From: a virus
DNA: 64,000 nt
Virus record (IMG/VR): IMGVR_UViG_3300023174_000038
Location: 1 to 64,000 of that record
Direction: 5' to 3' (one strand)
Shown: one piece after another, positions 6,412-49,977 of the stretch
How positions within the stretch are numbered: the stretch's first letter is position 1
Layout: each line of letters opens with the position of its first letter
Position numbers and translations under genes: made by a program
Notes under the pieces: generated by a model
Database searches by the model: none
What the model saw: only the letters and a program-made list of their open reading frames with translations
What the model was told of the DNA's origin: nothing

Positions 6412-6413
6412 AT

Positions 6414-7235: not shown

Positions 7236-7689
7236 TTCGTATATCCTCCATGCCTGCTGTACGTAAACGTACTATATGTCCCATCTGCCATTGTTTAGCT
7301 TCAAGACCCTTCATTATACCTAACCAACGATTTCTTAGTAATGCTACTTCATTGATAAGTGTTTCAAAGTCAACTACTTCATCTTCACCATCAACATACT
7401 TTTCAGCGTCACGGCTTGTTAATGCTCTATTATACGCTTCTAAATATTTTTGAAAATGTTTTCGGCGAATTTTCCGTAATTGAATATTAAGATAGTTCAG
7501 TACTGCTTCTATCTCTTGTAGTTGATTAAATCTATGTTCTGTGATTCCGGGTAATGCGGCAATGTTTTTTTCAACATTGCCGTATACCTTTACATCACTC
7601 TTTGCCGAAATTATTTCGTTATCATAATGACTAATAAAATCGGGTATCACAGCTAAATTAGTTGTGATCCGTGTATACCAATTTGACAT
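7228..7689 (-). CDS. uvsY: UvsY-like recombination mediator
   Basis: A 153-aa, highly helical protein. The central part (LNIQLRKIRRKHFQKYLEAY) and the C-terminal helix (ALLRNRWLGIMKGLEAKQW, then MGHIVRLRTAGMEDIRI) have the length, helical layout and ending expected of T4 UvsY, which loads UvsX onto gp32-coated ssDNA. The position two genes downstream of uvsX and in the same operon as uvsW supports this. Sequence identity to T4 is low by eye, so the call rests on pattern plus synteny. The neighbouring 83-aa acidic gene abuts it with no gap. Confidence 0.6.
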   Translation of the reverse strand: MSNWYTRITTNLAVIPDFISHYDNEIISAKSDVKVYGNVEKNIAALPGITEHRFNQLQEIEAVLNYLNIQLRKIRRKHFQKYLEAYNRALTSRDAEKYVDGEDEVVDFETLINEVALLRNRWLGIMKGLEAKQWQMGHIVRLRTAGMEDIRID

Positions 7690-14004: not shown

Positions 14005-15552
14005 TTAGCTTATGACCGCAAAGAAGGGTAAAGGAGCTATATACTCATCATGGTCACGTATCTGTGTCTCTAAATTCACATGATAATCACTTAAATGCTG
14101 TAACATACGTGTTACTAATAAGCTAGCCATAATCAAATCGTCGGTATCACCTATTTTAGCAGCATAACTACCACCATGTGCTACAAATGCTTTTAGTTCA
14201 CTTATAAGACTACGACTATTTACAGTCATTTTCTTGCTCTCAACCAATGTTTTGAACTTAGCACAACTTGCTAGTTTACTTTTATTAGTTGTGTTAAATC
14301 CTCTACGTCCTTTGCCTGCTTCACTAATAAAGATGCCCGGGATATTGCTTTCGCCGTATTCGTTTAATGATATGATAGCGGCTTCCCCTATACCATTACA
14401 TTCTATACTGTAATAGATGTTATTGGGTTCATTTGTACATTCTGCTATGTATTTGCTTATTTGTGCTAAGAGTTTAATCTGACTAGGGATATCTGTTTTA
14501 TTATGTTTCCATTCACCAACTTGGGTAGTAGTGTTTGCTTCAAAAATTTGTATTGCTGACGGATCACCGCCTGTACCAAGACTTGGATCTAATCCTATAC
14601 AATAGATATTACCTTTCTTTGGCTTTTCATACCACCGAACTTGTCCTATACGACTAACAGGTTCTATACCTTCCATAGCTATCAATGTGTTAGGATTAAT
14701 CAATGTCTCATCGGCAATAATAAATTCGCACCCAATTTCTCGGTTGAAACGATCCTCGCCGAGCTGTGCTTTCATTTCGTCAGCCCACTTTTGGTCTCGT
14801 CCTGGTTGCTCACTCCAATGCGCTCTATATGCTCTAAATCCGTTAACACCAATCTCAGTGGTATTGCCAAAATCATCTTCAGTCTTGTTAGCACCTTTCC
14901 AAATATAAGCAAATTGATCCTCATCACTATTTGGTGTGCTTGTGATAATAGCTTTACCACCAGTACTTAGTGTTGGTGTAATAGCTGTCCAGAATTCTTT
15001 AGCGATACTTGGGCGAACGAACGCAAACTCATCCAAGTATAATAGAGTAATAGACATACCACGACCTGTATTTTCAGTTGTTGTAGCTGAAACTATACGA
15101 GATCCATTCTCAAAGTCTAATGACCCTTTATTGTATGTTGTTACACCTGCTTTAATGTAATCAGGACAGTTTTCATATGCATATCGTATCCGTTGCATAA
15201 TCTCCTGTGCACCTGTATATTTGTGTGCCGCAACTAAGATAGTAGAGTCCGGAACAAACATTGCATACCAAAGTAGGTAACCGGCTGCACTTGTTGATTT
15301 ACCTGATTGTCGTGGCATCAAACTAATTGAAAATCTATAGTTATGATAGGTTTCAATTAATCGTGTTTGATAAGCCCAAGGGTGATAGACCATACTACCT
15401 TTAGTAGGATGCTGTATTATAAAAAAGTTATCCATGAAGTATAGATAACCTGTAACAGGATCACAACATTTGATAAAATCCTGTAGTTCTTTATCAGTTT
15501 TGAAAACTGTTTTAGTATAAGGATTTTTTACTAGTGAAGGGGCATTACTCAT
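14005..15552 (-). CDS. terL: Terminase large subunit (gp17/TerL)
   Basis: A 515-aa DNA-packaging motor. The ATPase domain has Walker A MPRQSGKST (79-87) and Walker B LLYLDEF (170-176) followed by a coupling-type motif ITSTPN. The nuclease domain carries GLDPSLGTGGDPS near 322 and a late DTDDLIMASLL motif, the acidic residues expected for an RNase-H-like fold. Length is shorter than T4 gp17 (610) but normal for related myoviruses. It cuts concatemeric DNA and pumps it into the prohead. The ATG follows a TATAAATAC late motif by 5 nt with no Shine-Dalgarno, which suggests a leaderless transcript. Confidence 0.96.
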   Translation of the reverse strand: MSNAPSLVKNPYTKTVFKTDKELQDFIKCCDPVTGYLYFMDNFFIIQHPTKGSMVYHPWAYQTRLIETYHNYRFSISLMPRQSGKSTSAAGYLLWYAMFVPDSTILVAAHKYTGAQEIMQRIRYAYENCPDYIKAGVTTYNKGSLDFENGSRIVSATTTENTGRGMSITLLYLDEFAFVRPSIAKEFWTAITPTLSTGGKAIITSTPNSDEDQFAYIWKGANKTEDDFGNTTEIGVNGFRAYRAHWSEQPGRDQKWADEMKAQLGEDRFNREIGCEFIIADETLINPNTLIAMEGIEPVSRIGQVRWYEKPKKGNIYCIGLDPSLGTGGDPSAIQIFEANTTTQVGEWKHNKTDIPSQIKLLAQISKYIAECTNEPNNIYYSIECNGIGEAAIISLNEYGESNIPGIFISEAGKGRRGFNTTNKSKLASCAKFKTLVESKKMTVNSRSLISELKAFVAHGGSYAAKIGDTDDLIMASLLVTRMLQHLSDYHVNLETQIRDHDEYIAPLPFFAVIS

Positions 15553-15566
15553 AACAAGTATTTATA
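15550..15566 (-). promoter_or_regulatory. Late promoter TATAAATAC in front of terminase
   Basis: The minus strand reads TATAAATACTTGTTATG. It is a full match to the T4 late consensus TATAAATA. By T4 geometry, transcription would start at or beside the A of the ATG. Confidence 0.65.
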
Positions 15567-27985: not shown

Positions 27986-28891
27986 TTAAAAGCTATGAGA
28001 TAAACCAATACCAACTTGTTTAACATCATTTGTTTTACCACCAGCATCAACATTGCGATAAGCAACTAATACATTGGTACGCTTACTGAAAGCATAATTA
28101 ACACCTACGTTATATGCTTTAACTTCTCCTGCGGCTAAACCAGTTTTAGTAGCATAGCTACCTTTAACACTAACTTCATTAGTTACCGGAGCTGTTACAC
28201 CATAAAAATGACCTTTAGTTTTAACTAGACCTGCTTTATCATCACTTTGAATTGTAGACAATTCAAAACCAGCTAGTTTTCCACTAGCAGTTACTACATT
28301 GGTATAATCTGTACCAGATTCAAAACGTGCAACTGCGGCTGCAACAGGACCTAATTTTCCACCAATACTCCATGATGTTGCTTCTAACGTAGCAGGTGCT
28401 GTGTACATACTACGGTCATACGTAGCAAATACAGGACCAAAATTTGCGGCTAAGTAAGCACCATCACCAATACGCTTGTCACGTACATTAACTACATCAA
28501 CCGAAACGGATGAATAAAGCGCACCGCCAAATGGATCAGCGTTCTTCATAGTAATGTATTCACTGTGTTCTTTACGACCTAAATCAATACTACCAAATTT
28601 ATTAGAAAGACCAATTGTACTTTGACGATCACCTAATTGTGTTGTAGCCCCAGCTTTTGGATCATCGGCTACTACAGAAGTTTCAACAACTACTCTAGCT
28701 GTTAATCCATGTCCTAATTTTTCTTCAGCTTTGATGCCAAAACGACTTGAATCATTAACAAGAGAGTTAATTTTTACAGTACCTGTTTTAGTGCTATCAG
28801 CAAATTCACTGATTTTACCATATACTGATACTTGTGCTGTTGCAACCATTGTTGTTGCAGCCAATAATGTCGCTAATGCGATTTTTTTCAT
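27986..28891 (-). CDS. Outer-membrane general porin (Burkholderiales type)
   Basis: A 301-aa precursor with a Sec signal peptide (MKKIALATLLAATTMVATAQ) and mature start VSVYGKI, as in Gram-negative general porins. The SRFGIK, GSIDLGRKEHSEY and YNVGVNYAFSKRT segments are classic of the Burkholderia/Neisseria-type porin family. It ends HSF, the C-terminal Phe needed for outer-membrane assembly by BAM. Length is slightly short for a 16-strand barrel (340-380 is usual), so some loops are trimmed. It has a late promoter TATAAATA and a strong Shine-Dalgarno AAGGA. It probably adds or changes outer-membrane permeability, or hides receptors. Confidence 0.88.
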   Translation of the reverse strand: MKKIALATLLAATTMVATAQVSVYGKISEFADSTKTGTVKINSLVNDSSRFGIKAEEKLGHGLTARVVVETSVVADDPKAGATTQLGDRQSTIGLSNKFGSIDLGRKEHSEYITMKNADPFGGALYSSVSVDVVNVRDKRIGDGAYLAANFGPVFATYDRSMYTAPATLEATSWSIGGKLGPVAAAVARFESGTDYTNVVTASGKLAGFELSTIQSDDKAGLVKTKGHFYGVTAPVTNEVSVKGSYATKTGLAAGEVKAYNVGVNYAFSKRTNVLVAYRNVDAGGKTNDVKQVGIGLSHSF

Positions 28892-28936: not shown

Positions 28937-28944
28937 TATTTATA
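28937..28944 (-). promoter_or_regulatory. T4-type late promoter for the porin gene
   Basis: Perfect TATAAATA on the minus strand, 46 nt upstream of the porin ATG. Confidence 0.6.
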
Positions 28945-28975: not shown

Positions 28976-29668
28976 TTACGTAATAACGTCTGCTTTAACA
29001 TGAAAAATAGCTCTTTTTACCAAACTATCTATACTATTAACTAAGGGAATGCCGTTTTTTTCTACTTCTCTAACGGCTAATGGTAATTCTGTACAACCTA
29101 ATACTACTGCACTTGCTCCACGACTAATCAAACTGTCTACTACAGGCATTAACATATTATGTGATACAACCATATCCCCTGCCTTAATTAAATCTATAGC
29201 AGGTTGTACTATGTTGTTCATTTCTTCTTGACTGGGGACAATACAATCCCAATCAATTAAACGATTTTGATATAAGCCTAATTCAATTGTAGCTTGTGTT
29301 CCCATTATACCTATTGTACCCGTAACATTTATATCACGTAATACATCAGCTACACTATCTACAATATGTAAAATAGGAACTTTAAATTTAACTAATTCAT
29401 CATACCAGTAATGCGCTGTATTACAAGGGATAACAATCGTAGTACATCCAACTGCTTTCAATACTTGCATACCTTGTAGTAAATATGGTAGTGGTCTATC
29501 ATCACCATTACGTATACTTGTGCTACGATCAGGTACACGTGGCTCATTCCATAATACAAATGGAATATGTTCTTGGTCACAAGTTGCGGGGGTTTGTTGT
29601 ATAAGTCGTGTTATATATTCCGCACTTGCTGCCGGACCCATACCGCCTAGTATACCTAGACGTTTCAT
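28976..29668 (-). CDS. Aspartate/glutamate racemase family enzyme
   Basis: A 230-aa cofactor-independent amino-acid racemase. Two catalytic cysteines are in place: Cys82 in IPCNTAH and Cys192 in LGCTELPL. The start MKRLGILGGMGPAASAEY is diagnostic for the Asp/Glu racemase superfamily (YgeA/RacX-like; the substrate can be Asp, Glu or broader). It interconverts L- and D-amino acids. It overlaps the membrane-anchored gene as ATGA and sits between a transporter and a porin, so it probably acts on imported amino acids. Alternatively it could make D-Asp/D-Glu for cell-wall interference. Confidence 0.9.
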   Translation of the reverse strand: MKRLGILGGMGPAASAEYITRLIQQTPATCDQEHIPFVLWNEPRVPDRSTSIRNGDDRPLPYLLQGMQVLKAVGCTTIVIPCNTAHYWYDELVKFKVPILHIVDSVADVLRDINVTGTIGIMGTQATIELGLYQNRLIDWDCIVPSQEEMNNIVQPAIDLIKAGDMVVSHNMLMPVVDSLISRGASAVVLGCTELPLAVREVEKNGIPLVNSIDSLVKRAIFHVKADVIT

Positions 29669-30270
29669 TTTTTGTTAAACAATAAACTAGATGCAATAAC
29701 CATAGCAGTTTGTGCGGCTTCTACATCTGTGGGTTGTTCTTTCCAACCTACACTAATCTGCCCAATGAAGACTCCGGGCTCTGCTGGTACACTGATACGA
29801 CACATATAGTTTACTCCGTATTCTTTATATACAAATCCAATAAGACTTTGTGGCTTTGTATATGGGCTACAGGGAATCTTACCTGACATCAATCCAATAA
29901 CATCGTTATTATTGTCATAGTTTTTACTAAACAACCCAACTTCTAATCCGTCATTTCTTTTATCTCTACCACCATTGCGTGTAGCTAAGTAAACAACTTT
30001 TCGTGTGTTAAGCAATGTATTGACTTCAAGAAAGGCAACCATTTCTACTTCAGTATTTTTTAATAAGAAATTATATGCGTCATCATACTTACCGTTCATC
30101 TTTGGTAATGCCTGTTGAGCACGGTAACTTGCTAAGAAGGCATCTTTTTCTGTATAAACTATCCAACCACCAAATCCTAGTACACAGAGAAACACAACGG
30201 TGAATAGGCGAAATGGACTTTCGCCTATATAGGTTAATAAACTAAAGAGAAAATCTTTAAGTTTGTCCAC
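29665..30270 (-). CDS. Membrane-anchored protein with extracytoplasmic sensor-like domain
   Basis: A 201-aa protein with one N-terminal membrane segment (about 20-37, LFTVVFLCVLGFGGWIVY) and a periplasmic domain of about 160 residues. The ending VNYMCRISVPAEPGVFIGQI, then VGWKE, has a GAF-like look (three-strand sheet core and helix), but this is uncertain. It overlaps the transporter by 14 nt and the racemase by 4 nt, so its function is tied to that block. It could be an accessory or regulator of the transporter. Not recognised as any named family. Confidence 0.75.
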   Translation of the reverse strand: MDKLKDFLFSLLTYIGESPFRLFTVVFLCVLGFGGWIVYTEKDAFLASYRAQQALPKMNGKYDDAYNFLLKNTEVEMVAFLEVNTLLNTRKVVYLATRNGGRDKRNDGLEVGLFSKNYDNNNDVIGLMSGKIPCSPYTKPQSLIGFVYKEYGVNYMCRISVPAEPGVFIGQISVGWKEQPTDVEAAQTAMVIASSLLFNKK

Positions 30271-31534
30271 CAGTAGCTACCTCTTTGTCGCAGACAAATG
30301 CTGTTACTGCAACATTGCCGTGTACGTGACTTGCTGTACGAATCATATCCATTAATGGATCAACGGCAATTAACAATACTAACACAGCTTCACTTGGTAG
30401 TTTTAATAAGTCACACACAACTGCTACTGTAGCAACTGTAAGAATACCTGTTGTACCTGCACTTGCTAATCCTGCCAAAATACTACCAAATAACACAACT
30501 GCTAGTCCCGTTAAGCCTAATGGAGCATCATAGATATTAGCAATGAATACTGTAGCAATAGCATAGTAAACAATACTACCAATACGATTGACTGTAAAAC
30601 TTAGTGGAACTGTTAGTTCAACACCACCTTTATCAAAGTGTAGTCTGTGTAATGATTCTTGTGCGTATGGAATACAAGCTAAACTACTACGTGAACTAAT
30701 AGCAACAATCAATGTTTCTTTAGTTTCACGGATAACAGTCATTAGACTTAATCCACTACGATACCAGATCATAGCAGTACCTGCGGCTACAACTAATAGT
30801 CCACCAACAAACTGTTGGAATACAAAGTCAAACATTGTTAAGAATATACCTACCCCTACCTTACCAACTTGGGCAGCAATCATTGCTAATAGAGCGATTG
30901 GTAAAAAGTAATTTAAGAATTTAAAGATACTGATACTTGCTTGTTGAATGCTTTTAAGTACTTCAACTAGCATCTTTTGACCTTCTGTTTTAAGATGTCC
31001 AAGAGCAACACCAAATATTAAACAGAAGATAACAATCTTCAAACTTTCACCATTGTTTAACGTGTTGAAAATGTTTTCTGGAATAAACTTCTCTGCCATC
31101 TTACCTGCACTTACTGCCGGTGCTACTGGCATTGGTTCTTTAAGAGTAATGTTTAAATCAGTACCACTGTCTTTGTTATTAACCAATACACCAAGTTGTG
31201 TTTTCTTTTCAGGAGTCATTTCAGTTCCTGTGACTAAAACTGTACCTACGCCAATTATTGCGGCTAAGAACATGCTACCAACAAAGCCTACAATGATTTT
31301 GCGTATTAATTGTTGGCTGCCTTCTTTTTGTAGTAAGCCAATGATACCAACTAGTATAGTTGCTAACAAGAATGGTAGTACAACAACTTTAAGTAAACTT
31401 ATATAGATACTACCAATACTATCAAAGTTAATGCTGAACTCGGGTGCGTAAACACCACTCAATATACCCACGATAATAGAACCAAGTATGGTCCACGGGC
31501 TTGTTAAAAACGTTTTTAAATGTGCGGTTGTCAT
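30257..31534 (-). CDS. SLC1/DAACS-family amino-acid or dicarboxylate transporter (divergent)
   Basis: A 425-aa integral membrane protein with the DAACS (GltP/DctA) plan: eight helices and two re-entrant hairpins. HP1 tip SSRSSLACIP corresponds to RSSSGTLP of GltPh. TM7 has NRIGS in place of NMDGT. TM8 reads DMIRTASHVHGN, keeping the substrate-binding Asp and Arg but replacing the sodium-site residues N401 and D405 by His and Asn. This suggests altered or absent sodium coupling. It lies between a periplasmic binding protein (9 nt away) and a membrane-anchored protein. Substrate probably an acidic amino acid. Confidence 0.85.
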   Translation of the reverse strand: MTTAHLKTFLTSPWTILGSIIVGILSGVYAPEFSINFDSIGSIYISLLKVVVLPFLLATILVGIIGLLQKEGSQQLIRKIIVGFVGSMFLAAIIGVGTVLVTGTEMTPEKKTQLGVLVNNKDSGTDLNITLKEPMPVAPAVSAGKMAEKFIPENIFNTLNNGESLKIVIFCLIFGVALGHLKTEGQKMLVEVLKSIQQASISIFKFLNYFLPIALLAMIAAQVGKVGVGIFLTMFDFVFQQFVGGLLVVAAGTAMIWYRSGLSLMTVIRETKETLIVAISSRSSLACIPYAQESLHRLHFDKGGVELTVPLSFTVNRIGSIVYYAIATVFIANIYDAPLGLTGLAVVLFGSILAGLASAGTTGILTVATVAVVCDLLKLPSEAVLVLLIAVDPLMDMIRTASHVHGNVAVTAFVCDKEVATGGQT

Positions 31535-31543
31535 ACTGAGTCC

Positions 31544-32362
31544 TTATTTCTTTTCAGCTTTGTAGCGATCCATTAACTTTTTAGTGTCAATATTACTGTA
31601 TTCATTTTTAATAACGTAATTAATAATGCTTAACAGTTGTAGTGATTTAGGATTTACTGCTACAGCAATATTATCTACGCTATCACTTATTGTAATTGTC
31701 TTAGTACTAATTGCGGCGTCTGGTTTCTCAAAAGCAATTTTCTTAATTTCAAACTCATCACGGTACGCAGCCGCAATATCACCCCTTGTAACTTTATCAA
31801 TGATTACATCCCATTTATCTTCTGGTAGAAATACAGCATTAGGGAAATTGATACGGGCAAATGTGTCATAGCTTGAGTTACGAATAAAACTTATTTTACC
31901 GTTAAAATCTCTAATTACTTGATATGTTTCTTTGCCTTGACTATTTTGACTTAGCCATAAACGATTAACAACTAAACTTTGTCTTAGCTTAATATAAGGA
32001 TCACTGAACCTAACAACCTGTAATCTAGGGCCGGTTACTGACAATTTGCTAACAGCAATATCGGCACGTCCGTCTCGTACTTGTTCAACAACTTCAGCAA
32101 AACTTTCTGCATCTCGTCTAAATTGTACTGGAACTCCGAGTAATACTCCAATTCTTCGTGCAATTTCAACGTCAAGACCATGGATATCATCCTCACCGCC
32201 ACTGAAGAAGGGAGGGTTATCTTTTTTGGTCATAGCCACAATAAGAACGTTTGCTTTCTTAATTGCGGCTATATCAGGGGGTAGTGGTACCGTAGAAGTT
32301 GGTAATTGTGCGTGGACAACTGAACTAATCAGTACAAATAATAATAGTAGTAGTTTTTTCAT
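31544..32362 (-). CDS. Periplasmic amino-acid-binding protein (SBP family 3)
   Basis: A 272-aa protein from ATG 32362; an upstream in-frame TTG is ignored because the signal peptide starts here (MKKLLLLLFVLISSVVHAQ). The mature protein has the SBP_bac_3 pattern: GLDVEIARRIGVLLG, RDAESFAEVVEQVRDGRADIA, and LSVTGPRLQVVRFSDPY with the conserved Arg that binds amino-acid carboxylate. Such proteins normally serve ABC importers, but no ABC gene is present; instead an SLC1 transporter follows at once. It probably captures amino acids in the periplasm for that transporter. A late-type CATAAATAC lies 6 nt before the ATG. Confidence 0.85.
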   Translation of the reverse strand: MKKLLLLLFVLISSVVHAQLPTSTVPLPPDIAAIKKANVLIVAMTKKDNPPFFSGGEDDIHGLDVEIARRIGVLLGVPVQFRRDAESFAEVVEQVRDGRADIAVSKLSVTGPRLQVVRFSDPYIKLRQSLVVNRLWLSQNSQGKETYQVIRDFNGKISFIRNSSYDTFARINFPNAVFLPEDKWDVIIDKVTRGDIAAAYRDEFEIKKIAFEKPDAAISTKTITISDSVDNIAVAVNPKSLQLLSIINYVIKNEYSNIDTKKLMDRYKAEKK

Positions 32363-32375
32363 AGTGTTGTATTTA
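32360..32375 (-). promoter_or_regulatory. Late-type promoter abutting the binding-protein start
   Basis: CATAAATAC followed after 6 nt by ATG; a TTGACA lies 13 nt further up (32388-32393) but with poor -10 spacing. There is no Shine-Dalgarno. Confidence 0.45.
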
Positions 32376-32432
32376 TGCAAGGTTATATGTCAATTGTTTT
32401 ACTAATAAAAAAGAGCCCCACAGAGCCCTTAG

Positions 32433-32512: not shown

Positions 32513-33160
32513 TTACTTTCCCAATAAGCTGTCAACCTTAGCCTCAGCAACATCTAAACGTGCTTCAATAGCGTCCAATATTGGATCTGCTGGAGTAGAA
32601 ACTGCTTCAACAATTTGTTGTGTTACTTCAGGAGAAACTTCTTCAACACCTGTAGCTGTAGCAATTACTTCAGCAACTGCGGCTGCTACTTCTTGTGCTA
32701 CTTCTGGGGCCGGAGTTGGCATATCAGCAACTGCTTGCATAATAGCTTCTGTAATTGCTACTGGATCAACTACAACTTCTGGCTCTGCTGTTACAACTGC
32801 CATAACTGCGGCTGCAACGATTTCAGCAACTTCCTCATGAGCAACGGCTGCTGCTTCAGTTTGTGCTATAACAACGTCAGCAACAATGTCAGCGGCTTCT
32901 GCATGGTCAGCACTTGGTGATAGTGCAACTACTTCTTCAACTTCTATCGGTGCATCTGCGGCTGGGGCAGAAATAATAGCATCAATATGTTCTTGAGTTT
33001 GAACAGCAATCAAGTGGTCAACTTGTACTTCAACTACGGATAATCTTGCGTCTAGTTCTTCAATGCTTATGGCACTGTCTGTGTTAACTGTTGTTCCAGT
33101 TAGGTTGGCTAATTTGGCTTCTACAGCTACTAATCTTGCGGCTAAATCTTCAAATCTCAT
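32513..33160 (-). CDS. Ala/Val/Glu-rich low-complexity protein
   Basis: A 215-aa very acidic protein composed largely of Ala, Val, Glu and Ile. N-terminal ARLVAVEAKLANL and C-terminal ARLDVAEAKVDSLLG are similar short coiled-coil motifs that could each trimerise. The middle is a chain of amphipathic helices (AEAADIVADVVIAQTEAA type). It has a strong Shine-Dalgarno (AAGGAGA) and a GTGCCA/TGGCAC hairpin in its leader. Possibly a virion, fibre-associated or membrane-contact protein; function unknown. Confidence 0.7.
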   Translation of the reverse strand: MRFEDLAARLVAVEAKLANLTGTTVNTDSAISIEELDARLSVVEVQVDHLIAVQTQEHIDAIISAPAADAPIEVEEVVALSPSADHAEAADIVADVVIAQTEAAAVAHEEVAEIVAAAVMAVVTAEPEVVVDPVAITEAIMQAVADMPTPAPEVAQEVAAAVAEVIATATGVEEVSPEVTQQIVEAVSTPADPILDAIEARLDVAEAKVDSLLGK

Positions 33161-35541: not shown

Positions 35542-37209
35542 TTATTTATATTGTAGATTCACCAAATCTTGGTGTAGTTTATCGCTAGACAATTGACGCA
35601 AAACTCTTGCGTTGTCTACATTTACTTGATTTTTGTAAATCTCTTTTGGTGCATAGAACGGTGCATCTGCTAATGCAAATGAATATGCTTGATAGCCTGC
35701 AGGTTGTGTTGCCATTCTTGCTATATCAACACCGCCGGCTAATTCATTTGGCTGAACATTTCTATTCACTGTTTCTGTCTTTTGTTCTTGTGTATTTGTA
35801 TTTTGTACAATTGGTCTTTCTTCAATTGCATCATTCAATACTGAACGTGAACCCATTTTAATACCTTCATTCTGAGGTACTTCTATTTCAGGAGTAGTAG
35901 CATTACGACCCTGCGGTGATTGTAAACTATACATTTCAGTTGATCCAAATGAAACATTATTACTCATTGTATTATTAGGATCAGAAAATATAGTTTGAGT
36001 TGGTGAACGTAGTCCTCCAAGATTGATTACACTAGTCTGTGTAGTATTTACAATAGCAACAATAGATGATTGTGAGGATGTATTTATTTGTGTAGTTGAT
36101 GATCCAGTAGTTGTCATACTGCTAGTAACACTTTGTGCAGTTAGTGAACCAGCAACTGATTCTGCTTGTTCTCGTGCTTGCTGTGCATCTTTTGCGGCGG
36201 CTGACTCTGCTGCCTGAACAACTGCCTTAGCTTCATTGCCTATTCTAGTTTGGTTACTACTAATCATACTTAATACATTACCTAGACTAGGACCGGCTTT
36301 ACTATCATCTTTAGCAGATTTATTTTCACTAGGACGAGGCTGAGATCCTGCAGGAGGAGGATTTCCTGGCGGGGGAAGGGGCCCTGCTTGTTGAGAACCA
36401 TTAGGTGGGGGAGGACTACCTGGGGGAGGAGGTGGAGGTGCGCCATCTTCTGGTGGAGGTGGGGGAGGTGCATCCGCTACTGCTACTGGAGTAGGTGCTA
36501 ATTTAGCAAGAGCATCTGAGTAACCTCTACAACTAGGTGAGTATAATGGGTTAGTAGCACAAGGGTCAACACTATACTTCAAACTAAAATTTACATTAAT
36601 AATTTCAGGACCATATGGTCCAACCCAGTAGTTGTTGTCTCTTCCCACAAATCCATACTGAGCATTACCTAAATCAGGAGTAGCATATGCTGACTTAAAT
36701 GTTTCTGACCAATAGAACTGAGTCCAACCATATCTACGATTTACATCATAGTTGTATGCTTCTACTACCTTTGTGTTTGTGTTGTTGTATATGTTTACAT
36801 AAGCCTTTAGATAATCTTGTCTGCCATCATCCCATCCATTACCGTTCTTAGCAGTAAAGCCAAAGTTAAAACCATTCACTTGTAATCCTGTGCCACTATT
36901 AGGTAGCGCATTTTTAATAGCAACAGTTTGATTTAAGTCTGTTAGTCCATATGAAAAATTAATGACATTAGACCCTGCGCCCCAGGCGGCAACTCTGGGC
37001 AATGGACCACAATAACCAGGGCCGCCCGGCTCCCAACATGTAAGCTGTTGACCAATAGTACCGGCATTTTGCCATGTACTTGTAGTAGCTGTGGCATTAC
37101 TGGTAAAATTGACCAAATTACCAGTTGTTGTTACATCCTGACTATTAGAATATCTTATTGACAATAAGACCAAGAACAGCCCCAATGCCAATTTTCTTAT
37201 AAGTGTCAT
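35542..37209 (-). CDS. Secreted proline-rich protein, 555 aa
   Basis: Signal peptide (about 1-23, MTLIRKLALGLFLVLLSIRY then SNS) and a globular N-terminal domain rich in aromatic residues and Gly (GYGLTDLNQTV-type beta segments, YGWTQFYWSE). A poly-Pro/Gly linker follows at about 250-300, then an Ala/Ser/Thr/Gln-rich helix region with Asn and Thr repeats. The poly-Pro spacer suggests it crosses the periplasm or peptidoglycan. It overlaps the next secreted protein's frame by 65 nt. It may be an envelope-spanning structure or an adhesin; unrecognised. Confidence 0.75.
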   Translation of the reverse strand: MTLIRKLALGLFLVLLSIRYSNSQDVTTTGNLVNFTSNATATTSTWQNAGTIGQQLTCWEPGGPGYCGPLPRVAAWGAGSNVINFSYGLTDLNQTVAIKNALPNSGTGLQVNGFNFGFTAKNGNGWDDGRQDYLKAYVNIYNNTNTKVVEAYNYDVNRRYGWTQFYWSETFKSAYATPDLGNAQYGFVGRDNNYWVGPYGPEIINVNFSLKYSVDPCATNPLYSPSCRGYSDALAKLAPTPVAVADAPPPPPPEDGAPPPPPPGSPPPPNGSQQAGPLPPPGNPPPAGSQPRPSENKSAKDDSKAGPSLGNVLSMISSNQTRIGNEAKAVVQAAESAAAKDAQQAREQAESVAGSLTAQSVTSSMTTTGSSTTQINTSSQSSIVAIVNTTQTSVINLGGLRSPTQTIFSDPNNTMSNNVSFGSTEMYSLQSPQGRNATTPEIEVPQNEGIKMGSRSVLNDAIEERPIVQNTNTQEQKTETVNRNVQPNELAGGVDIARMATQPAGYQAYSFALADAPFYAPKEIYKNQVNVDNARVLRQLSSDKLHQDLVNLQYK

Positions 37210-38275: not shown

Positions 38276-38347
38276 TTTTATTATCATCCTCTAGAGATAG
38301 TATTTATTTGCTTATTAGTTGAGAAATATCACACTTTATTAAATAGG

Positions 38348-38367
38348 AAAGGCTCCTAAGAGCCTTT
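38348..38367 (-). terminator. Rho-independent terminator after the tmRNA coding piece
   Basis: An 8-bp stem AAAGGCTC/GAGCCTTT with TTAG loop (minus), followed by CCTATTT. It is nearly identical to the hairpin at 27945-27966. Confidence 0.88.
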
Positions 38368-38564
38368 ACTGAGTTTCTGTTACGAGGTATGTCTTACCCT
38401 AGGCTGCGTTTAGGCTGCCAATGCGAACTGTGAGTCGTTTGCGTTTACTTTTTTTGCTTCTACGGCCGAGTTCCCCCAACCCTAACGGCTTCTGCTTTGC
38501 CGAGCGCCTAATCTTAACTACTATCCTGTCGGTCGATCCCAAGTCACCCCCATCATAAAAACAC

Positions 38565-38605
38565 AATACCAAAGTAAATTTACACGGAATACCAAAGTAA
38601 ATTTA
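38565..38605 (-). repeat. 18-bp direct repeat inside the tmRNA intervening segment
   Basis: AATACCAAAGTAAATTTA occurs at 38565-38582 and again at 38588-38605, 23 bp apart. It lies wholly in the segment removed during processing. It is A/T-rich and may be a processing signal or a homing footprint. Confidence 0.85.
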
Positions 38606-38681
38606 TGCTCTTATGGTGGAGGTGGGGAGAATTGAACTCCCGTGTCGCCAGTGTTTCCTAAGCAGGTTTACGCTGTTCTTA

Positions 38682-39314
38682 CTATTTAGTCAACCTACCC
38701 CTAGATAGATTGAATAAAGTAATTTTATCATCATCTGGTTTTAAATAAAAGTTAATTTGGGAATTATTATACCAATGTTTACCGTATGCATTACTATTCT
38801 TATTCTTTCTGTTGTCTCTCCATTCCGATGTAGGTATCCATCCGGATGGAATTTCATTTTTGTAGTACATTTTACGATTAACTAATTCAACTGACGATTT
38901 TTCTACACACCAAACTTTTCCAAAATTAGAGTTATTTTCTTTTTGTTGGTGCTTTCTTTCTTTAAAAGTTTTATTTCTCTTTTCCATTGCAGATTGGGTT
39001 TTTGACAACTTACTTGCTCGGGCTTGTTGTTCTTGATTTATCGCAAAATTAGTTTTAGTTTGAACATTTTTAAATGGATTAGGATGTAATTGTCTGCATT
39101 TTTTACCAGCTTCACTTTGTCTAATTTTTACTAATTCTTCTTTAGGACTTAATTTTGCTAAACCCTGCCATGCAACATAATCTTGCCAACGACCATATTC
39201 TTCGTATAACTTGCGATGTGCCTCTGCATGTTCATCAATAGATAATTCTATAAGGTTCCTAGGATCATCTGTCCCGCCTGCGTGTTTAGGAATAATATGG
39301 TGTTTATGGCTCAT
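38682..39314 (-). CDS. HNH homing-type endonuclease
   Basis: A 210-aa protein from ATG 39314 (MSHKHHIIPKHAGGTDDP). The HHIIPKHxGGxDDxxNL...HAEAH pattern is the HNH beta-beta-alpha-metal fold with its catalytic His and metal ligands. The Lys/Asn-rich C-terminal half ends in a DNA-binding-like region (WIPTSEWR, NAYGKHWYNN) reminiscent of phage homing endonucleases with NUMOD-type motifs. Its stop codon directly precedes the tmRNA acceptor piece. A late-type CATAAATAC lies 4 nt before the ATG. It probably spreads itself between phage genomes and may carry the tmRNA along. Confidence 0.85.
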   Translation of the reverse strand: MSHKHHIIPKHAGGTDDPRNLIELSIDEHAEAHRKLYEEYGRWQDYVAWQGLAKLSPKEELVKIRQSEAGKKCRQLHPNPFKNVQTKTNFAINQEQQARASKLSKTQSAMEKRNKTFKERKHQQKENNSNFGKVWCVEKSSVELVNRKMYYKNEIPSGWIPTSEWRDNRKNKNSNAYGKHWYNNSQINFYLKPDDDKITLFNLSRGRLTK

Positions 39315-43542: not shown

Positions 43543-45096
43543 TTATTTGTTATAATTATTTAATATATCAGATAGCCATGGTATATAATTTTCTAATTTA
43601 TGACCTCTAATGTCATCTAACCTACGGGTATCGTCAGCTAGCTTTGGTAACAGATGGCTATTATCTTTAGCAAACATATAGTTGATTAAACCACTATAGC
43701 TATGCCTAAATATATTACCCATTTCTAGTCCATATTTTTCATCTATTTCTTTGTAAAAAAATTCATATGCTTCTCGTATTTGATTTTTTACATTAACGGG
43801 TAGTACTTGTATACTCATGGGAGACGGGCCCTCTAGTACGTGATAGCTAGGCGTTTTTCTAATTCTTTTATAATTTTTTTCTATTAACCATTTAGAAATT
43901 TCTAAAAAATGATATACATTGAATATACTTATAGTAGTAGATATTGTACCATAAATAGATTTAGTTGGATTATTACCTAACACATCTAAATTTTGTTCTA
44001 GTGCATCCCAAGTACTTGGATATCTTAGATAGTATGCCAAATCCTCAATTGCATCTATACTGCATCCTATTCCTACGGATCTGAACTCTTCCCATAAGTT
44101 ATATAGCTTATTTGGTATAGCAAACATATTTGAATTGTAATCCAAATGAACACGATTGCTATGACCCATATCTATAATTTTTTGTAATAATTTAAAATGT
44201 ATTTTATTAATTGTAGGTTCGCCGCCGGTAAAATAATATCGGTCAATATAGGGAATTAGTTTTTCAATTTGATTCCAGAATTCATCCGATTCATACCATT
44301 CAAAATCCGAAGAATCAATGGTATAATTATTATTTTTTTTGATTACATTATACGTTTTTCCCCCATAAAAAGACATAGGAGCTGAGGAAGGCTTTTCTCC
44401 CTCGTATGACATGAAAACAAAATCGTCATACCACAGACTGCTATCGGTCGGGCCGCAATATCTACATTTTAAATTGCATAAATTTCCAAAACGAATATCA
44501 ATATATTTTATTGGAAACTTTTCTATATCTATACTTCCATCATTAGCAGTGTTATCAATGAATCCTGTATGTCCGTATGTATTAATACTGTGTAATCTTT
44601 TACTAGATAAACCGGTGTCTTCTTCTTTCCAACATAAATTACATGACGGATGTTTTTCTCCGCGCAACATACTTGCACGTAATTCTTTAAATACTGTGTT
44701 ATTTCGTGATTGATTTATATCAGTATTTTTAACGTTTAACATTTCTCCGTTCTCTATTAGTTTACCGTACGGGTAGTATATCTGTTGACAACAAATTCTT
44801 AAATCTCCATTTTGTTGTATGCCAGTAGAGACCCATGGTATTGGGCAAAACGTTGAATTTTTTGGAAGGTCCTGCATTTGAGGATTTATTTGATTCAGTC
44901 TTGTTTTTGCTAGCTCAATTGAAGCTTCTGAGCAATGAGGATTTTTCATACCTGCTACTATAACTTCTGATTCAACATCATGTGTTATCATAGCTGTTAT
45001 TAATTCAGGAAAATCTGTAATTGTAATAAGTTCAACTCGTTCATTAGAATCAAAACAGTTGTGAAGTTTATTAAACCAATATTCACTGGTATTCAT
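43543..45096 (-). CDS. Radical SAM enzyme with N-terminal twitch/SPASM-like domain (1)
   Basis: A 517-aa protein. Residues 1-75 are a helical N-terminal segment (ELITAMITHDVESEVIVAGM) similar in plan to that of the 774-aa enzyme. A Cys-rich twitch/SPASM-like domain follows (FCPIPWVSTGIQQNGDLRIC at 83-102, CNLCW near 152). The radical SAM core starts with CNLKCRYC (207-214), the [4Fe-4S] ligand motif. The N-terminal twitch order matches the family NCBI names N-terminal twitch rSAM. It cleaves SAM to a 5'-deoxyadenosyl radical; the substrate is unknown. It overlaps the next gene by 4 nt. Confidence 0.88.
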   Translation of the reverse strand: MNTSEYWFNKLHNCFDSNERVELITITDFPELITAMITHDVESEVIVAGMKNPHCSEASIELAKTRLNQINPQMQDLPKNSTFCPIPWVSTGIQQNGDLRICCQQIYYPYGKLIENGEMLNVKNTDINQSRNNTVFKELRASMLRGEKHPSCNLCWKEEDTGLSSKRLHSINTYGHTGFIDNTANDGSIDIEKFPIKYIDIRFGNLCNLKCRYCGPTDSSLWYDDFVFMSYEGEKPSSAPMSFYGGKTYNVIKKNNNYTIDSSDFEWYESDEFWNQIEKLIPYIDRYYFTGGEPTINKIHFKLLQKIIDMGHSNRVHLDYNSNMFAIPNKLYNLWEEFRSVGIGCSIDAIEDLAYYLRYPSTWDALEQNLDVLGNNPTKSIYGTISTTISIFNVYHFLEISKWLIEKNYKRIRKTPSYHVLEGPSPMSIQVLPVNVKNQIREAYEFFYKEIDEKYGLEMGNIFRHSYSGLINYMFAKDNSHLLPKLADDTRRLDDIRGHKLENYIPWLSDILNNYNK

Positions 45097-46403
45097 AGCC
45101 GTTCTCCTGTATGATGTTGTAACTCAGGAAAGGTTTTTTTGAAATCAGTATTTCTTTCTTTATCTAGTTTAATCAAATAACCCATATACCAGTTAACATC
45201 AAAGTCAACAGTTTCTTCTAATGCATTTTTAATTATACTTAACCTGTTATCAAATACATTTTTACAATCTTCCTGTAATTTTTGTGAAGATTTTAATGGT
45301 AATAATGTATTGTAATACCATTGCTCATACTCGGAAATTTTAATACGTAAATGTTCTTTCCATTCTTTACTAGCGGACCTTATTGAAAAGTACTCAGGAT
45401 ATAGTAAAACAATATTATGATAATCAGATTCCCAAATACTAGTGTTGTAAAACGTATGCGGGAAGAGGTCATTTACTAAAAAATATTCTAGTATATCTTT
45501 TATCCGATGTATATTCATCAGACTCCAGGTTGGAGTAATTACCCAATGACGATTACTTCCTGTTAAATTATCTTTTAATAGTTTAATATTTTTCAATATT
45601 TTATTTGCATCAGCTGGATAGCGTATGTAAAATAATCTATCCACATCAACTTCATCTAAACTTACTAATACACGTAATTTTTCCATGTGTTTCCAGTAAT
45701 CTAAAACGTCTGTTGATTTATAAGTCATTGTGGTTAAGTTAGTACTGTACACAAATTCTATTTCTCCTAATCTGTTTGATTCTTTAATATATTCTAGTAT
45801 TTCATAATGTTCAGGATGAAGTAAAGGTTCTCCACCAGCAAAATATATTTCTTCAACATTGTTTACTTGCGATTTTATAGTTTCAATGAAGCTTTCTTTA
45901 TGATTTTTACTGTTATTAAATTGATCCTCAGTATAATTAGGATCAATTGCCTTCATAATAGGTACCCATGAACTACTATACGTAGGATGGCACACTGTAC
46001 ATGCTAGATTACATAAATTGTTAAATCTGAAATCCCATTTCAAAAATTTCATACTACTCATTGTTCCATCTATAGCAGTATTATCTTCAATCAGTTCTTC
46101 ATAAAAATCTTTAAACCTATCATTAAAGCTTCGGCGTATTGTTGACGTACTTCCCCATTCTTCTTCTTTGTAGCATCTTGTACAATGTTTTGATTTTGTA
46201 TCGTTTAATATATCTCGTCTTAATTCTTTATAATTTTCATTGTTCCAAATATCTTGTATATTTTCTTTATACAAATTCCCCATACTGCCACCTAAACTGA
46301 TACAGCAGGGAAGTATATCTCCTGTTGGAACATTATGTATATGCATAAACGGAGCCATGCAAAATACTTTGCTTTCTTTAATGTGAAATGTTTTTTTAGT
46401 CAT
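45093..46403 (-). CDS. Radical SAM enzyme with N-terminal twitch/SPASM-like domain (2)
   Basis: A 436-aa protein from ATG 46403 (MTKKTFHIKESKVFCMAPFM); an earlier start would lie deep in the upstream gene. Twitch-type cysteines FCMAPF and ILPCC lie near 15-34, with GNLYKENIQDIWNNENYKEL, the classic SPASM linker, and CTRCYKEEEW at 74-83. The radical SAM core motif is CNLACTVC (131-138), with GGEP following (YFAGGEPLLH). It overlaps both neighbours by 4-8 nt. Substrate unknown; probably works in series with the four other rSAM enzymes. Confidence 0.88.
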   Translation of the reverse strand: MTKKTFHIKESKVFCMAPFMHIHNVPTGDILPCCISLGGSMGNLYKENIQDIWNNENYKELRRDILNDTKSKHCTRCYKEEEWGSTSTIRRSFNDRFKDFYEELIEDNTAIDGTMSSMKFLKWDFRFNNLCNLACTVCHPTYSSSWVPIMKAIDPNYTEDQFNNSKNHKESFIETIKSQVNNVEEIYFAGGEPLLHPEHYEILEYIKESNRLGEIEFVYSTNLTTMTYKSTDVLDYWKHMEKLRVLVSLDEVDVDRLFYIRYPADANKILKNIKLLKDNLTGSNRHWVITPTWSLMNIHRIKDILEYFLVNDLFPHTFYNTSIWESDYHNIVLLYPEYFSIRSASKEWKEHLRIKISEYEQWYYNTLLPLKSSQKLQEDCKNVFDNRLSIIKNALEETVDFDVNWYMGYLIKLDKERNTDFKKTFPELQHHTGERL

Positions 46404-48720
46404 TTGAAATTTTAAAAACTTTTTTTGATTTATTTCTATACTGTTCGTGTACCGTTTCTTTTGTTTGAATTTCAGATGATATCCAATCTTTAATATTACC
46501 TGTTTCTTCAAAAACACCATCAAAACTATAATTAACCTTTTCTCTTTCCAATCGGTATGTTTCTTTTAAGTGCGGAGTTACTGTATCATGTACAAATTTA
46601 TGTGTCAACTTTATATTATAGTTGCCATTAGAGTCTATCTCAAACGTTAGATCAGAGTCGTACATTCTAGAAATATAATCACCAAACGTATTAAAGTCAG
46701 TTTCTGCATTGCACTTAAATGTAAATTTAAAAGCTCCAAAGTACGTGTGTATAACATATAGCAAAGCAAAATATTCGTTAGTTATACTAGCAAAAAACGT
46801 GTTATCTGTGTTTCTATTCAAGTTAACATATTGGTCATATGTTATATAGTCTGTTACATTTTTAGTACCAGTAAAAGTATAAAAATCTTGTATATTGTGA
46901 TATCGTTGAGCATTAATCATAGCAGAATCAGAATAATAATTGATTATATCTAACCACACATGGTTTAATTTTATTCTTAAAAATCTATGCATAGCAGTAT
47001 TATTATCAGTATGCCATGAGTTAAATAAATTGTTATCGTAGGGTTTCTCAATCCAATTCATTCCATAATCTTTCCAATTAGTATCCCAGTGTGCAATACT
47101 TTGGGGCGGTGATGCTCCAAAGCCTGGACTTATATTATCAATCCAATTTCTACAATTGAATAGTAATTGAAAACTATGTAAGCAGTCGATTGGTTCTTCT
47201 GTGGGGAATCCTACCATCCAATTTATGTGAACAAACATCCCCGACGCTTTAGAATCTTTAAGATTATTTTCTACTTCCCATATGTCAATCTTCTTACGCA
47301 TATCATTAAGAACTTTTTGACTTCCTGATTCTACCCCATAGCTCAGACATGTGCATCCACTATCTGTAACCTTTTGTAAGAATTCAGCAGTCATTCTTCC
47401 ATCACATCTTGCGTAAGAGTTCCAATGTATTTTAATATTTCTTTCTAATATTAGATCAACCAGTTTTTGGAAATTTTTTAAATTTCCATTAACTAAACTA
47501 TCAACAAACCAAAATCTACTAACACCTAAATTATTTTGTTGGTATTCTATTTCATCTACTACTCTTTCCGGAGTCATTGATCTAAATTTCCAGAAATGTG
47601 TTTCAGCGCAAAAACTACAGTCTGCTACACACCCTCTAGACGTTTCAATGCTAACCCCGTAGCTGTGTTCGTAGTTGCTAAAATTGTAATCAGAATAGTC
47701 CGGATACGGGTATACGTCTAAATCTAATTTACTATTTACCGTCCCTATAGTTTGACTGCTACCAATATCGGTATCATCAGTTAACTCTTCCAAAAATTTT
47801 ACAAAATTTTCTTCAGCCTCTCCTATAAATTTGTAATTTATAAGAGTTGTTAATAAATGTCCGTTGCTAATAGCACCGGGACCTCCTACCACGATACATA
47901 CATCGGGCATCATATATCTTAATTCCCGTATTAGATATAGACTAGCATGGATGTTTGTATCATATAAACTAAATCCAACGACCTTGGGATTAGATTGAAG
48001 AATATTAAATAATGTTCTATCAAATACGTCCTTCAAGTCGGGCAATATAAATTCACTAAAACTTTCCGAGCTATTCCAATAAAAATATCTATTTGATGCC
48101 CAGTAGTCAATTCCGGTGGTATCATGAAGATGATGGAAAGATTCTATATTAAGATCGTACACTCTAACACTATAATCTAAATGTCTCAATAATCCTGTTA
48201 GTTTGGCGAGGTTGTAAGGTGGAAATAGTTTTCCCCAAGCTGGCGCTACTACAAGTCCAATTCTAAATTTAGAAGTGTCTGCCCATTCAACTTCTTTATG
48301 GATATATCCGGAATCTACGGTAGGTTGTTCATCTCCTAAATGTGATATTGCATGACTTAGATTTGAATCTTTTTTAAGTATATGATTTAGGATAATTTGA
48401 TCCCGATCACCGACAACCATCTTTGTTGCCTCTTCCTCTTGTTTTGCAATATCATCCGACATTAGTGTTATTCTTTGTCGTCTGTCTCTTTCACTCCAAA
48501 ATCTAGGATTATCAATTTCGGGAAATCTTAATATTGCAATTTCAATAAATGCTTTATCAATTTTAGAACTAACCGCGGCAGCCTCTACGACAGACGCCAT
48601 TGTGTCCCATTTGATCATATTTTCTAATATATAAGTTGGGCATCCTCGTGTGGATGCAACATTAATTCTTTCTAAATGATCCGCATCTTTTAGTCTTTCT
48701 TCAAAGTTTATTTTTTTCAT
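46396..48720 (-). CDS. B12-binding radical SAM enzyme
   Basis: A 774-aa protein with three parts. A helical N-terminal region (1-130, LENMIKWDTMASVVEAAAVS) may be protein-binding. A Rossmann-like cobalamin-binding-type domain follows at about 150-320 (LVVAPAWGKLFPPYNLAKL, then VVGFSLYDTNIHASLYL and IVVGGPGAIS), lacking the DxHxxG base-off motif. A radical SAM core begins ETSRGCVADCSFC (364-371) and includes NWMVGFPTEEP. Such BchE-type enzymes perform C-methylation, ring closure or other radical chemistry. The last 200 residues are unique. It overlaps the next rSAM gene. Confidence 0.88.
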   Translation of the reverse strand: MKKINFEERLKDADHLERINVASTRGCPTYILENMIKWDTMASVVEAAAVSSKIDKAFIEIAILRFPEIDNPRFWSERDRRQRITLMSDDIAKQEEEATKMVVGDRDQIILNHILKKDSNLSHAISHLGDEQPTVDSGYIHKEVEWADTSKFRIGLVVAPAWGKLFPPYNLAKLTGLLRHLDYSVRVYDLNIESFHHLHDTTGIDYWASNRYFYWNSSESFSEFILPDLKDVFDRTLFNILQSNPKVVGFSLYDTNIHASLYLIRELRYMMPDVCIVVGGPGAISNGHLLTTLINYKFIGEAEENFVKFLEELTDDTDIGSSQTIGTVNSKLDLDVYPYPDYSDYNFSNYEHSYGVSIETSRGCVADCSFCAETHFWKFRSMTPERVVDEIEYQQNNLGVSRFWFVDSLVNGNLKNFQKLVDLILERNIKIHWNSYARCDGRMTAEFLQKVTDSGCTCLSYGVESGSQKVLNDMRKKIDIWEVENNLKDSKASGMFVHINWMVGFPTEEPIDCLHSFQLLFNCRNWIDNISPGFGASPPQSIAHWDTNWKDYGMNWIEKPYDNNLFNSWHTDNNTAMHRFLRIKLNHVWLDIINYYSDSAMINAQRYHNIQDFYTFTGTKNVTDYITYDQYVNLNRNTDNTFFASITNEYFALLYVIHTYFGAFKFTFKCNAETDFNTFGDYISRMYDSDLTFEIDSNGNYNIKLTHKFVHDTVTPHLKETYRLEREKVNYSFDGVFEETGNIKDWISSEIQTKETVHEQYRNKSKKVFKISND

Positions 48721-49973
48721 TATGTTTGATTTTTAAATAATTCAAGTTGTTGCTCAGTATACTGAACTACTTCTCCTGGATTTTGCATCCCTCGTATTGG
48801 AACAAGACTTACAACACCTTTAACTCTTCCATTTGCACCCGGTCTGTTTAATAAATCTAAATTTAATATTTTCTCTTTTAATTTTAATGCTCTATCTATA
48901 TATTTAGGAGGAGCCATTAATTTTACTTCTAACCAATGGTCATCGTCATGTTCATCAAAATGTTCGCATATTACTTTAATATTTTTAACAAATCTATCTT
49001 CATCATTGTATTCTGTTAAGCCGTCAAAATGAGCACTTAATAATATGCTATTCATATATTTTGCTAGTTCCCCCCAGTATTTATGATCTCTGGTTCCATT
49101 ACTAGTTACCATAGTCCATTGGTTTTTACCTTTAAGATACTTAATAAAATCTAAAAAGTTAGGATGTAACGTAGGCTCACCGCCGCCAAAGTTCCATCTG
49201 ATGGTTTTATTATGGGCCCATTCTTCAATAATCTTATCAGCAGTGCTTATCAATAAGTCATAATCTTTATGGGTATCAGTTTTATTATGCACTCCTGGCC
49301 AGCAATAGGAACAATCATAATTACATTTTCTGCTAAGATCCCATAAAATTTGATAGGGCATAGAATAATTCAATTCAACTGCAACTGGATCACTTATATT
49401 ATCAACATAATCATTTTCAGTACGGTCTCGCCCTTGCCATCCTTCATTGTTAACAGCAAGCGTTGTCCTATGCATTTTAGTTTTGACTTTGCTTAATACA
49501 ACATCAGCACCGCAGCTACATGAATTCCACGGACATACAAACCACTCTTTAGACAAAGAAAAACTTTCATTTATATTGCCCAAAAACCCAGGTATATTAT
49601 TTTTATTTTCTTCTGTTACTGGGATTATTTTTTTATATGCCTTGCCATTCTTTTTAAATTCTGATTCTAATTTTAAAAATTCTTCGCCTGTATGCCACCA
49701 CTCAGATGGAATATTTTTTCCAAATTTATCAATCTTAGAGAATAACAATTCTTTCCAATTGTCATGATTAAAACGGTCTATGAATGAACTAGCTGTATTA
49801 CATACCCAAATGTTGCCGTCAAAGTCAATATATAAATTTTGAACTCCGGCGCTACATTTCCAATTTTGCCAATAATTATATCTGTTTGCAATTGCTTCGT
49901 CAACCGAAACTCTTATAAATTTTCCATCATCATCATATATTCTTAATTGCTTGTTGTTGTTAATATTATCCAT
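48720..49973 (-). CDS. Radical SAM enzyme with twitch-like cysteines before the core (3)
   Basis: A 417-aa protein. Near the N-terminus NWKCSAGVQNLYIDFDGNIW (residues 38-57) and later FLGNINESF, CPWN and CSCGAD (130-156) match the C-terminal auxiliary domain of the neighbouring 319-aa enzyme. The radical SAM core follows with CNYDCSYC (217-224), and GGGEPTLHP is the SAM-binding motif. The auxiliary domain is thus before the core here and after it in the neighbour. It overlaps the 774-aa gene at a single base. Substrate unknown. Confidence 0.88.
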   Translation of the reverse strand: MDNINNNKQLRIYDDDGKFIRVSVDEAIANRYNYWQNWKCSAGVQNLYIDFDGNIWVCNTASSFIDRFNHDNWKELLFSKIDKFGKNIPSEWWHTGEEFLKLESEFKKNGKAYKKIIPVTEENKNNIPGFLGNINESFSLSKEWFVCPWNSCSCGADVVLSKVKTKMHRTTLAVNNEGWQGRDRTENDYVDNISDPVAVELNYSMPYQILWDLSRKCNYDCSYCWPGVHNKTDTHKDYDLLISTADKIIEEWAHNKTIRWNFGGGEPTLHPNFLDFIKYLKGKNQWTMVTSNGTRDHKYWGELAKYMNSILLSAHFDGLTEYNDEDRFVKNIKVICEHFDEHDDDHWLEVKLMAPPKYIDRALKLKEKILNLDLLNRPGANGRVKGVVSLVPIRGMQNPGEVVQYTEQQLELFKNQT

Positions 49974-49977
49974 TATG

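Follow-up and report, generated by a model that had tools for sequence, protein, structure and literature searches.

The window analyzed here is a stretch of 64,000 nucleotides (positions 1 to 64,000 of IMG/VR record IMGVR_UViG_3300023174_000038) within a 348,701-base (348.7 kb) virus record that may be incomplete. A terminase large subunit (14005-15552) is among its phage genes, and the source is a giant freshwater phage. The minus strand also carries a phage-encoded tmRNA gene (38319-38707; tag ANDSQFALAA) and a run of radical-SAM proteins (43543-50937), one of which has a B12-binding domain (46396-48720). We focused on a minus-strand cassette that begins with the gene of a family 3 solute-binding protein (SBP; 31544-32362), which encodes 272 amino acids with a signal peptide and matches Pfam PF00497 (SBP_bac_3) with an E value of 1.4e-17. 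It is followed after 9 nt by the gene of an SLC1/DAACS-type carrier (30257-31534; 425 amino acids; PF00375 [SDF], E = 4e-66), then by p201 (29665-30270), whose product is predicted with AlphaFold2 and Foldseek to be a membrane protein similar to T4 holin T, with a periplasmic domain of GAF-like fold, by an Asp/Glu-type racemase gene (28976-29668; PF01177, E = 3.2e-38), and by a Gram-negative porin gene (27986-28891; PF13609, E = 5.7e-23). The SBP-SLC1 pair is common to dozens of relatives of this phage and to some bacteria.

A first-pass annotation of this DNA had described the pair at 30257-32362, with an SBP gene starting 9 nt before the carrier gene. Both genes do lie in that span and the 9-nt spacing holds, but it is the end of the SBP gene that lies 9 nt before the start codon of the carrier, and the cassette reaches further, into p201 and the racemase gene, whose reading frames overlap (14 nt between carrier and p201, 4 nt between p201 and racemase). 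The porin is a possible outer-membrane entry step; it lies near the cassette in some relatives only (L002-L005 and L028). On the other side, just upstream of the SBP gene, there is a low-complexity Ala/Val/Glu-rich protein (32513-33160, minus strand) with no Pfam match, and related open reading frames adjoin the cassette in several phages.

The annotation had also stated that no ABC permease or ATPase accompanies the pair, and our searches agree. A profile search of the 348,701-base record, which may be incomplete, gave no ABC permease (PF00528), and the SBP of the cassette is the sole SBP_bac_3 protein found in that record. No ABC ATPase motif was found at any of the 75 viral loci retrieved from IMG/VR with the carrier (a scan with the SBP retrieved 69) or at 16 of the 17 assessable bacterial loci described below, so that these loci do not have the makeup of ABC importers. 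Neither DctM nor DctQ is among the genes that follow the SBP gene in the window, which Pfam assigns to SDF, p201, racemase, and porin, and the cassette is thus not a TRAP system either.

Late promoter, p201, and racemase

The sequence CATAAATA, a T4-type late promoter -10 element, occupies 32370-32377 on the minus strand, 15 nt before the ATG of the SBP gene. [TC]ATAAATA occurs in the 70 nt that precede the SBP gene in 45 of 56 distinct viral upstream regions, mostly 13 to 15 nt before the ATG, and no distinct viral locus has this pattern upstream of SDF, p201, or racemase. On this pattern, the phage operon, including the holin-like gene and the racemase gene, is predicted to be under one T4-type late promoter. 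The late promoter-like element TATAAATA is rarer in the window than expected by chance (3 observed versus 14 expected), and all of its copies (15559-15566, 28937-28944, and 35543-35550, minus strand) are just upstream of genes, namely, those of the terminase, the porin (53 nt before it), and orf206; we take them as predicted T4-type late promoters of this jumbo phage. In many relatives, TATAAATACTATT directly precedes the SBP ATG, suggesting that their late mRNAs are nearly leaderless.

In an AlphaFold2 model (pLDDT of 85.7), the product of p201 shows a single membrane helix at its N terminus and a periplasmic domain resembling GAF, and Foldseek matches it to T4 holin T (PDB 6px4) with an E value of 4.3e-5. 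In a structural ranking 6px4 came first with a Z score of 12.6, a tie with GAF domains, which reach 12.3. None of the 23 members of p201 matched any holin family of Pfam at E values up to 10. Where p201 occurs alone, its surroundings vary: in L190 it lies in a lysis-gene context, beside a weak Rz1-like and a weak GH19-like match, and in other phages beside replication or terminase genes. Compared with the T4 holin T/antiholin RI system, p201 appears alike in topology, modeled periplasmic fold, and predicted late expression, but differs in the missing Pfam match and the tie with GAF domains, and we identified no RI homologue. Taken together, we judge it quite probable that p201 is T4-holin-like.

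The racemase in the window passes the NCBIfam model for cysteate racemase CuyB (NF052483) with 211.7 bits against a cutoff of 190, which gives a predicted identity, and it also passes the cutoff for general amino acid racemases. Both catalytic cysteines, in the motifs CNTAH and GCTE, are invariant.

Conservation and coinheritance of the pair in phages

In each of the 65 viral SLC1 loci for which 1 kb or more of upstream sequence is available, the SBP gene is located directly upstream of the carrier gene, which argues that the adjacency is not due to chance; p201 is located directly downstream of the carrier gene in 70 of 71 viral loci. For spacing and distance correlations, we used the 41 distinct phage loci in which all four genes are complete. 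The SBP-carrier spacing in these ranges, with a single exception, from -4 to 15 nt, and the overlap of the carrier and p201 genes from 8 to 38 nt. When protein distances are compared, the SBP and the carrier show a correlation of r = 0.86, by far the highest value for any gene pair of the operon, while carrier and p201 reach r = 0.52 despite their gene overlap; the values are lower for SBP or carrier with racemase (r = 0.36) and for p201 with racemase (r = 0.39). Given that linkage alone would not favor SBP-carrier over carrier-p201, this points, at the level of sequence covariation, to the SBP and the carrier as a functional unit, with p201 and racemase being exchanged more freely. A share of this coinheritance could stem from physical linkage, although the overlapping p201 gene is without such a signal. 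The SBP, the carrier, and p201 have dN/dS values of about 0.08 to 0.09 and are therefore under strong purifying selection.

The position of p201 raises the question of whether the pair is mainly a solute sensor (transceptor) that signals to this holin-like protein and sets the time of lysis, as RI does on T. T4 antiholin RI binds the periplasmic domain of holin T and thereby governs lysis inhibition (PMC11413866; PMC8385771). A sensor of this kind would fit the modeled fold and topology of p201, its place directly downstream of the carrier gene, which it overlaps in most phages, and the shared late promoter. However, p201, which the bacterial systems are without, changes for the most part independently of the pair (r of about 0.52) and occurs alone in other phages, and the joint operon may reflect late timing only. 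We therefore regard the sensor as improbable, and give as little credence to its fuller form, in which the pair would sense or import an amino acid from lysed neighbors and set phage lysis time via the translationally coupled T4-holin-like protein. If it were true, a transporter devoid of ion coupling would place lysis under the control of a small molecule.

Matches in a collection of annotated phages were all below 60% identity, with the carriers at 23 to 27% among the matches listed; where annotated, these carriers were labeled gltP, gltT, or dctA, and they are not from the SBP-linked clade. The viral contig IMGVR_UViG_3300027749_002876 (524,565 bases) contains two copies of the cassette (L028/L077 and L069/L078), with identities to the window of 95 and 94% for the SBP, 84 and 82% for SLC1, 98 and 72% for p201, and 91 and 65% for the racemase.

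Bacterial relatives and the carrier clade

The closest relative of the pair is found in a Burkholderiales metagenome bin, where the adjacent genes encode an SBP with 65% and a carrier with 66% identity, on a contig that also has bacterial metabolic genes. A pattern scan based on a tight SLC1 alignment (A1) gave this single near bacterial relative, and broader profiles (A5 and A6) were needed for more distant ones. Profile searches yielded clade members in 3 of 300 Burkholderiales genomes (E of 1e-45) and in 5 of 369 genomes of the class, with more in a phylum sample searched with a broader profile, whose threshold canonical carriers pass as well. The bacterial loci come from Burkholderiales, other Pseudomonadota, and one Bacillota genome with two carrier copies. 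Because canonical SLC1 proteins pass an E value of 1e-50 with A6, the E value alone cannot define the clade, and we defined it by tree, motif, and neighbors; its members had been gathered by carrier similarity, irrespective of whether an SBP was present. A maximum-likelihood tree of 123 proteins, obtained by a quick search and with some long branches, places the SBP-linked carriers on one branch (SH-aLRT of 99, length of 1.49), within which all phage carriers make up one clade beside the Burkholderiales bin.

An SBP gene adjoins the carrier gene on the same strand in 15 of the 17 assessable bacterial loci of the clade (one further locus lies at a contig end); the two members without it are L321 and the second copy in L316. 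Among canonical SLC1 loci, only 1 of 73 (L284) has an SBP_bac_3-type neighbor, so that SBP linkage differs between clade and canonical carriers with a Fisher p of 1e-12 on a conservative set of 57 controls. L284 is a canonical GltP-like gene outside the clade with a typical ABC-type SBP as its neighbor. The pairing, whose absence elsewhere would have spoken against the first-pass annotation, is thus found in both phage and bacterial genomes. Fusions of SBP and SLC1, which that annotation had proposed to look for, were not found; long open frames, e.g., one of 726 amino acids in G057, were rejected as such, since they proved to be overlapping reading frames in G+C-rich DNA.

Several bacteria have the pair within a longer operon of the order SBP-SLC1-racemase-SLC1. 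In Gemmobacter aquarius the genes are annotated as a transporter substrate-binding domain protein, a cation:dicarboxylase symporter, an amino acid racemase, and another cation:dicarboxylase symporter; in Cupriavidus sp. P-10 and in Paraburkholderia phymatum STM815, where the operon is on a megaplasmid, they were assigned by HMM matches. Behind the racemase or the first carrier, bacterial operons frequently have a second SLC1 copy that has diverged strongly (L327, 6032-7336; L328, about 5990-7268; L329, about 5982-7260; L145, 2753-4183; L132, 9828-11237, minus strand); it may act as an exchanger or as a partner subunit. On the sequences compared here, the pair is judged to be bacterial in origin and to have been captured by phages.

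These distributions bear on the idea that the two are separate auxiliary genes, with the SBP boosting an ABC amino acid transporter of the host and the SLC1 carrier working alone on the same substrate. A boost of this kind to host phosphate uptake has been ascribed to phage PstS, SBP_bac_3 proteins normally serve ABC systems, and lone SBPs do occur in phages, e.g., a PstS-like open reading frame near the cassette in L217 (8758-9732, minus strand). Nevertheless, the pair predates the phages and persists in bacteria with no ABC genes next to it, its two members covary far more than neighboring genes do, and the tie to an SBP is limited to a carrier clade without the canonical coupling sites described next, all of which makes separate roles rather unlikely.

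The carrier belongs to SLC1/DAACS (TC 2.A.23) by its PF00375 sequence match and its fold but is without the NMDGT-type TM7 motif. The AlphaFold2 model of a phage carrier is weak (pLDDT of 69.8) and served only to confirm the fold; its top Foldseek matches are all SLC1 structures, the first being PDB 9bgy, a reconstructed uncoupled aspartate transporter. We compared 50 clade members (27 phage and 23 bacterial rows) with 72 canonical carriers in GltPh numbering. In GltPh, the NMD motif and its surroundings bind Na1 to Na3 and the substrate (PMC12668577; PMC5110648), and we took from PMC12668577 both the Na+ signature ([S/T]92-93, N310, [M/S]311, [D/E]312, [D/E]405) and the H+ signature (L311 and N405, with S279E as the putative protonation site). 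The Na+ signature is present in none of the 50 clade members versus 16 of 72 canonical carriers, and the H+ signature in none of the 50 versus 39 of 72. The NMDGT motif is replaced by N-R-I-G-S in the window and by N-R-[ILV]-G-S in all 27 phage rows. Arginine at position 311 (27/27 phage and 18/23 bacterial rows) thus stands, in most members, where Met311 ligates Na2 in GltPh. All 27 phage rows also have Asn at 405, His at 401, and Ile, Leu, or Val at 312, and all phage carriers have Leu at the S279 position, with no S279E. We consider the carrier, from these residues, to be probably cation uncoupled; loss of the known coupling residues does not prove loss of coupling, and the carrier may have a different ion site.

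An ordinary Na+- or H+-coupled glutamate carrier with an unrelated SBP beside it by chance would be of the kind seen in L284, where a canonical GltP-like gene adjoins an ABC-type SBP. At a chance adjacency of about 1 in 73, set against pairing at 65/65 viral and 15/17 bacterial loci and coupling signatures missing in 50/50 clade members, we find this highly improbable.

Other features of the pair relate to its ligand. All 27 phage carriers keep R276, D394, R397, and T398 in HP1 and TM8, the last three of which participate in amino acid substrate binding in GltPh; bacterial clade members vary at the substrate residues, with R397 in 9 of 23. The SBP matches amino acid SBPs of ABC systems (best PDB match with an E value of 8e-16), and PF00497 together with a signal peptide, read from the sequence and apparently cleavable, places it in family 3. 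In the phage alignment (A2), its R113, D202, and K106 are invariant, R113 and D202 presumably being the positions that usually hold the carboxylate and the amine of the amino acid. Based on the SLC1 pocket, K106 of the SBP, and the racemase, we infer that the ligand is most likely acidic, i.e., Asp, Glu, or a close analogue such as cysteate, in the L or D form. The periplasmic 3-4 loop of the carrier, with 55 to 75 residues in most clade members (outliers of 47 and 91) versus 41 to 57 in canonical carriers, is a candidate docking site for the SBP.

Proposed mechanism and relation to known transporters

The reading that we favor, and consider likely, is that the pair, bacterial in origin and captured by phages, takes up an acidic amino acid by way of an SLC1 carrier that depends on the SBP and is probably uncoupled from cations. 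The SBP would catch the amino acid, most likely an acidic one, in the periplasm and hand it, through contact with the carrier, to an elevator-type SLC1 protein without the three Na+ sites and the H+ site, which would move it by the SLC1 elevator without Na+ or H+, or with a different coupling. In most members, the arginine at the place of the Na2-ligating Met could serve as a cation built into the protein. Instead of a sodium gradient, the SBP and the conversion of the substrate inside the cell by the racemase would account for high affinity and direction; the racemase would change the imported enantiomer and could so keep the gradient inward. The system would have arisen in bacteria, often as SBP-SLC1-racemase-SLC1, and a freshwater jumbo-phage group would have acquired the pair from a donor of the Burkholderiales type and placed it, together with a T4-holin-like gene, behind a single late promoter. 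The gain for the phage may be an amino acid fed to the cell late in infection.

The same components might also form an exchanger module, in which the carrier, the second bacterial SLC1 protein, and the racemase swap D- and L-amino acids while the SBP sets the periplasmic pool. The frequency of the racemase and the second SLC1 copy in bacterial operons would suit such a module, as would the loss of cation sites. We hold it to be quite improbable, given that SBPs are normally components of import and that the phage cassettes are without a second SLC1 gene.

As a predicted SBP-dependent uptake system, the pair resembles TRAP and TTT transporters in that a periplasmic SBP would serve a secondary carrier, not an ATPase, and in that the carriers are for organic acids. 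It differs from them in its permease, which is of SLC1 type (PF00375) and not DctM/DctQ or TctA/TctB, in its SBP, which is of ABC family 3 type and not DctP or TctC, and in having neither a small membrane subunit nor the Na+ signature. With SBP_bac_3 ABC amino acid systems, it shares the SBP component but not the permease and ATPase genes. The carrier is like other SLC1/DAACS proteins (GltPh, GltTk, GltP, DctA, and EAATs) in sequence, fold, and the substrate residues of its phage members, and unlike them in its missing NMDGT and S279E, the Arg at 311 of most members, the longer loop, and the SBP that nearly always adjoins it, a pairing unreported for SLC1.

SLC1 carriers uncoupled from both Na+ and H+ have been characterized (Ext-Int and Anc-Int; PMC12668577). 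Their cation-independent transport, together with 9bgy as the top structural match, makes them the likeness for the phage carrier; the difference is that reconstructed Anc-Int keeps the Na+-site residues, and no binding protein is mentioned there. The BCCT protein CaiT owes its independence of Na+ to an Arg that takes the place of the ion (Kalayil et al. 2013, as cited in PMC13270143). As the folds are unrelated, the parallel to the SLC1 clade is an analogy only.

The logic proposed in the first-pass annotation, an SBP with an unrelated secondary carrier instead of an ABC or TRAP system, is thus well supported genetically, because the pairing is conserved, the genes travel together, and the carrier clade is tied to an SBP. 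Our analysis adds to it the lost cation-coupling residues, the racemase and holin-like genes under one predicted late promoter, and the bacterial origin. To our knowledge, no SLC1 carrier is known to use an SBP, and SBP-dependent secondary transport is known to us for TRAP and TTT only. A review of the field (PMC8276074) deals with ABC and TRAP systems and refers to TTT, and our search of the open literature, outside which most subscription journals lie, found no report of a system of SBP and SLC1/DAACS. The SBP-linked SLC1 pair has the appearance of a third, so far undescribed kind of secondary transporter that depends on a binding protein, and the case for a third class would be strong if assays confirm SBP dependence. 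Were an SLC1 member to depend on an SBP, permeases working in this mode would extend to a third family, unrelated to the other two, which includes the human glutamate transporters. With all known cation sites lost and often an Arg for the Na2 ligand, the role of cations in SLC1 would become testable in a natural cation-free relative. For the phage, the strong purifying selection on the pair, together with its place in a late operon that has a holin-like gene, suggests that amino acid uptake may matter at the end of infection.
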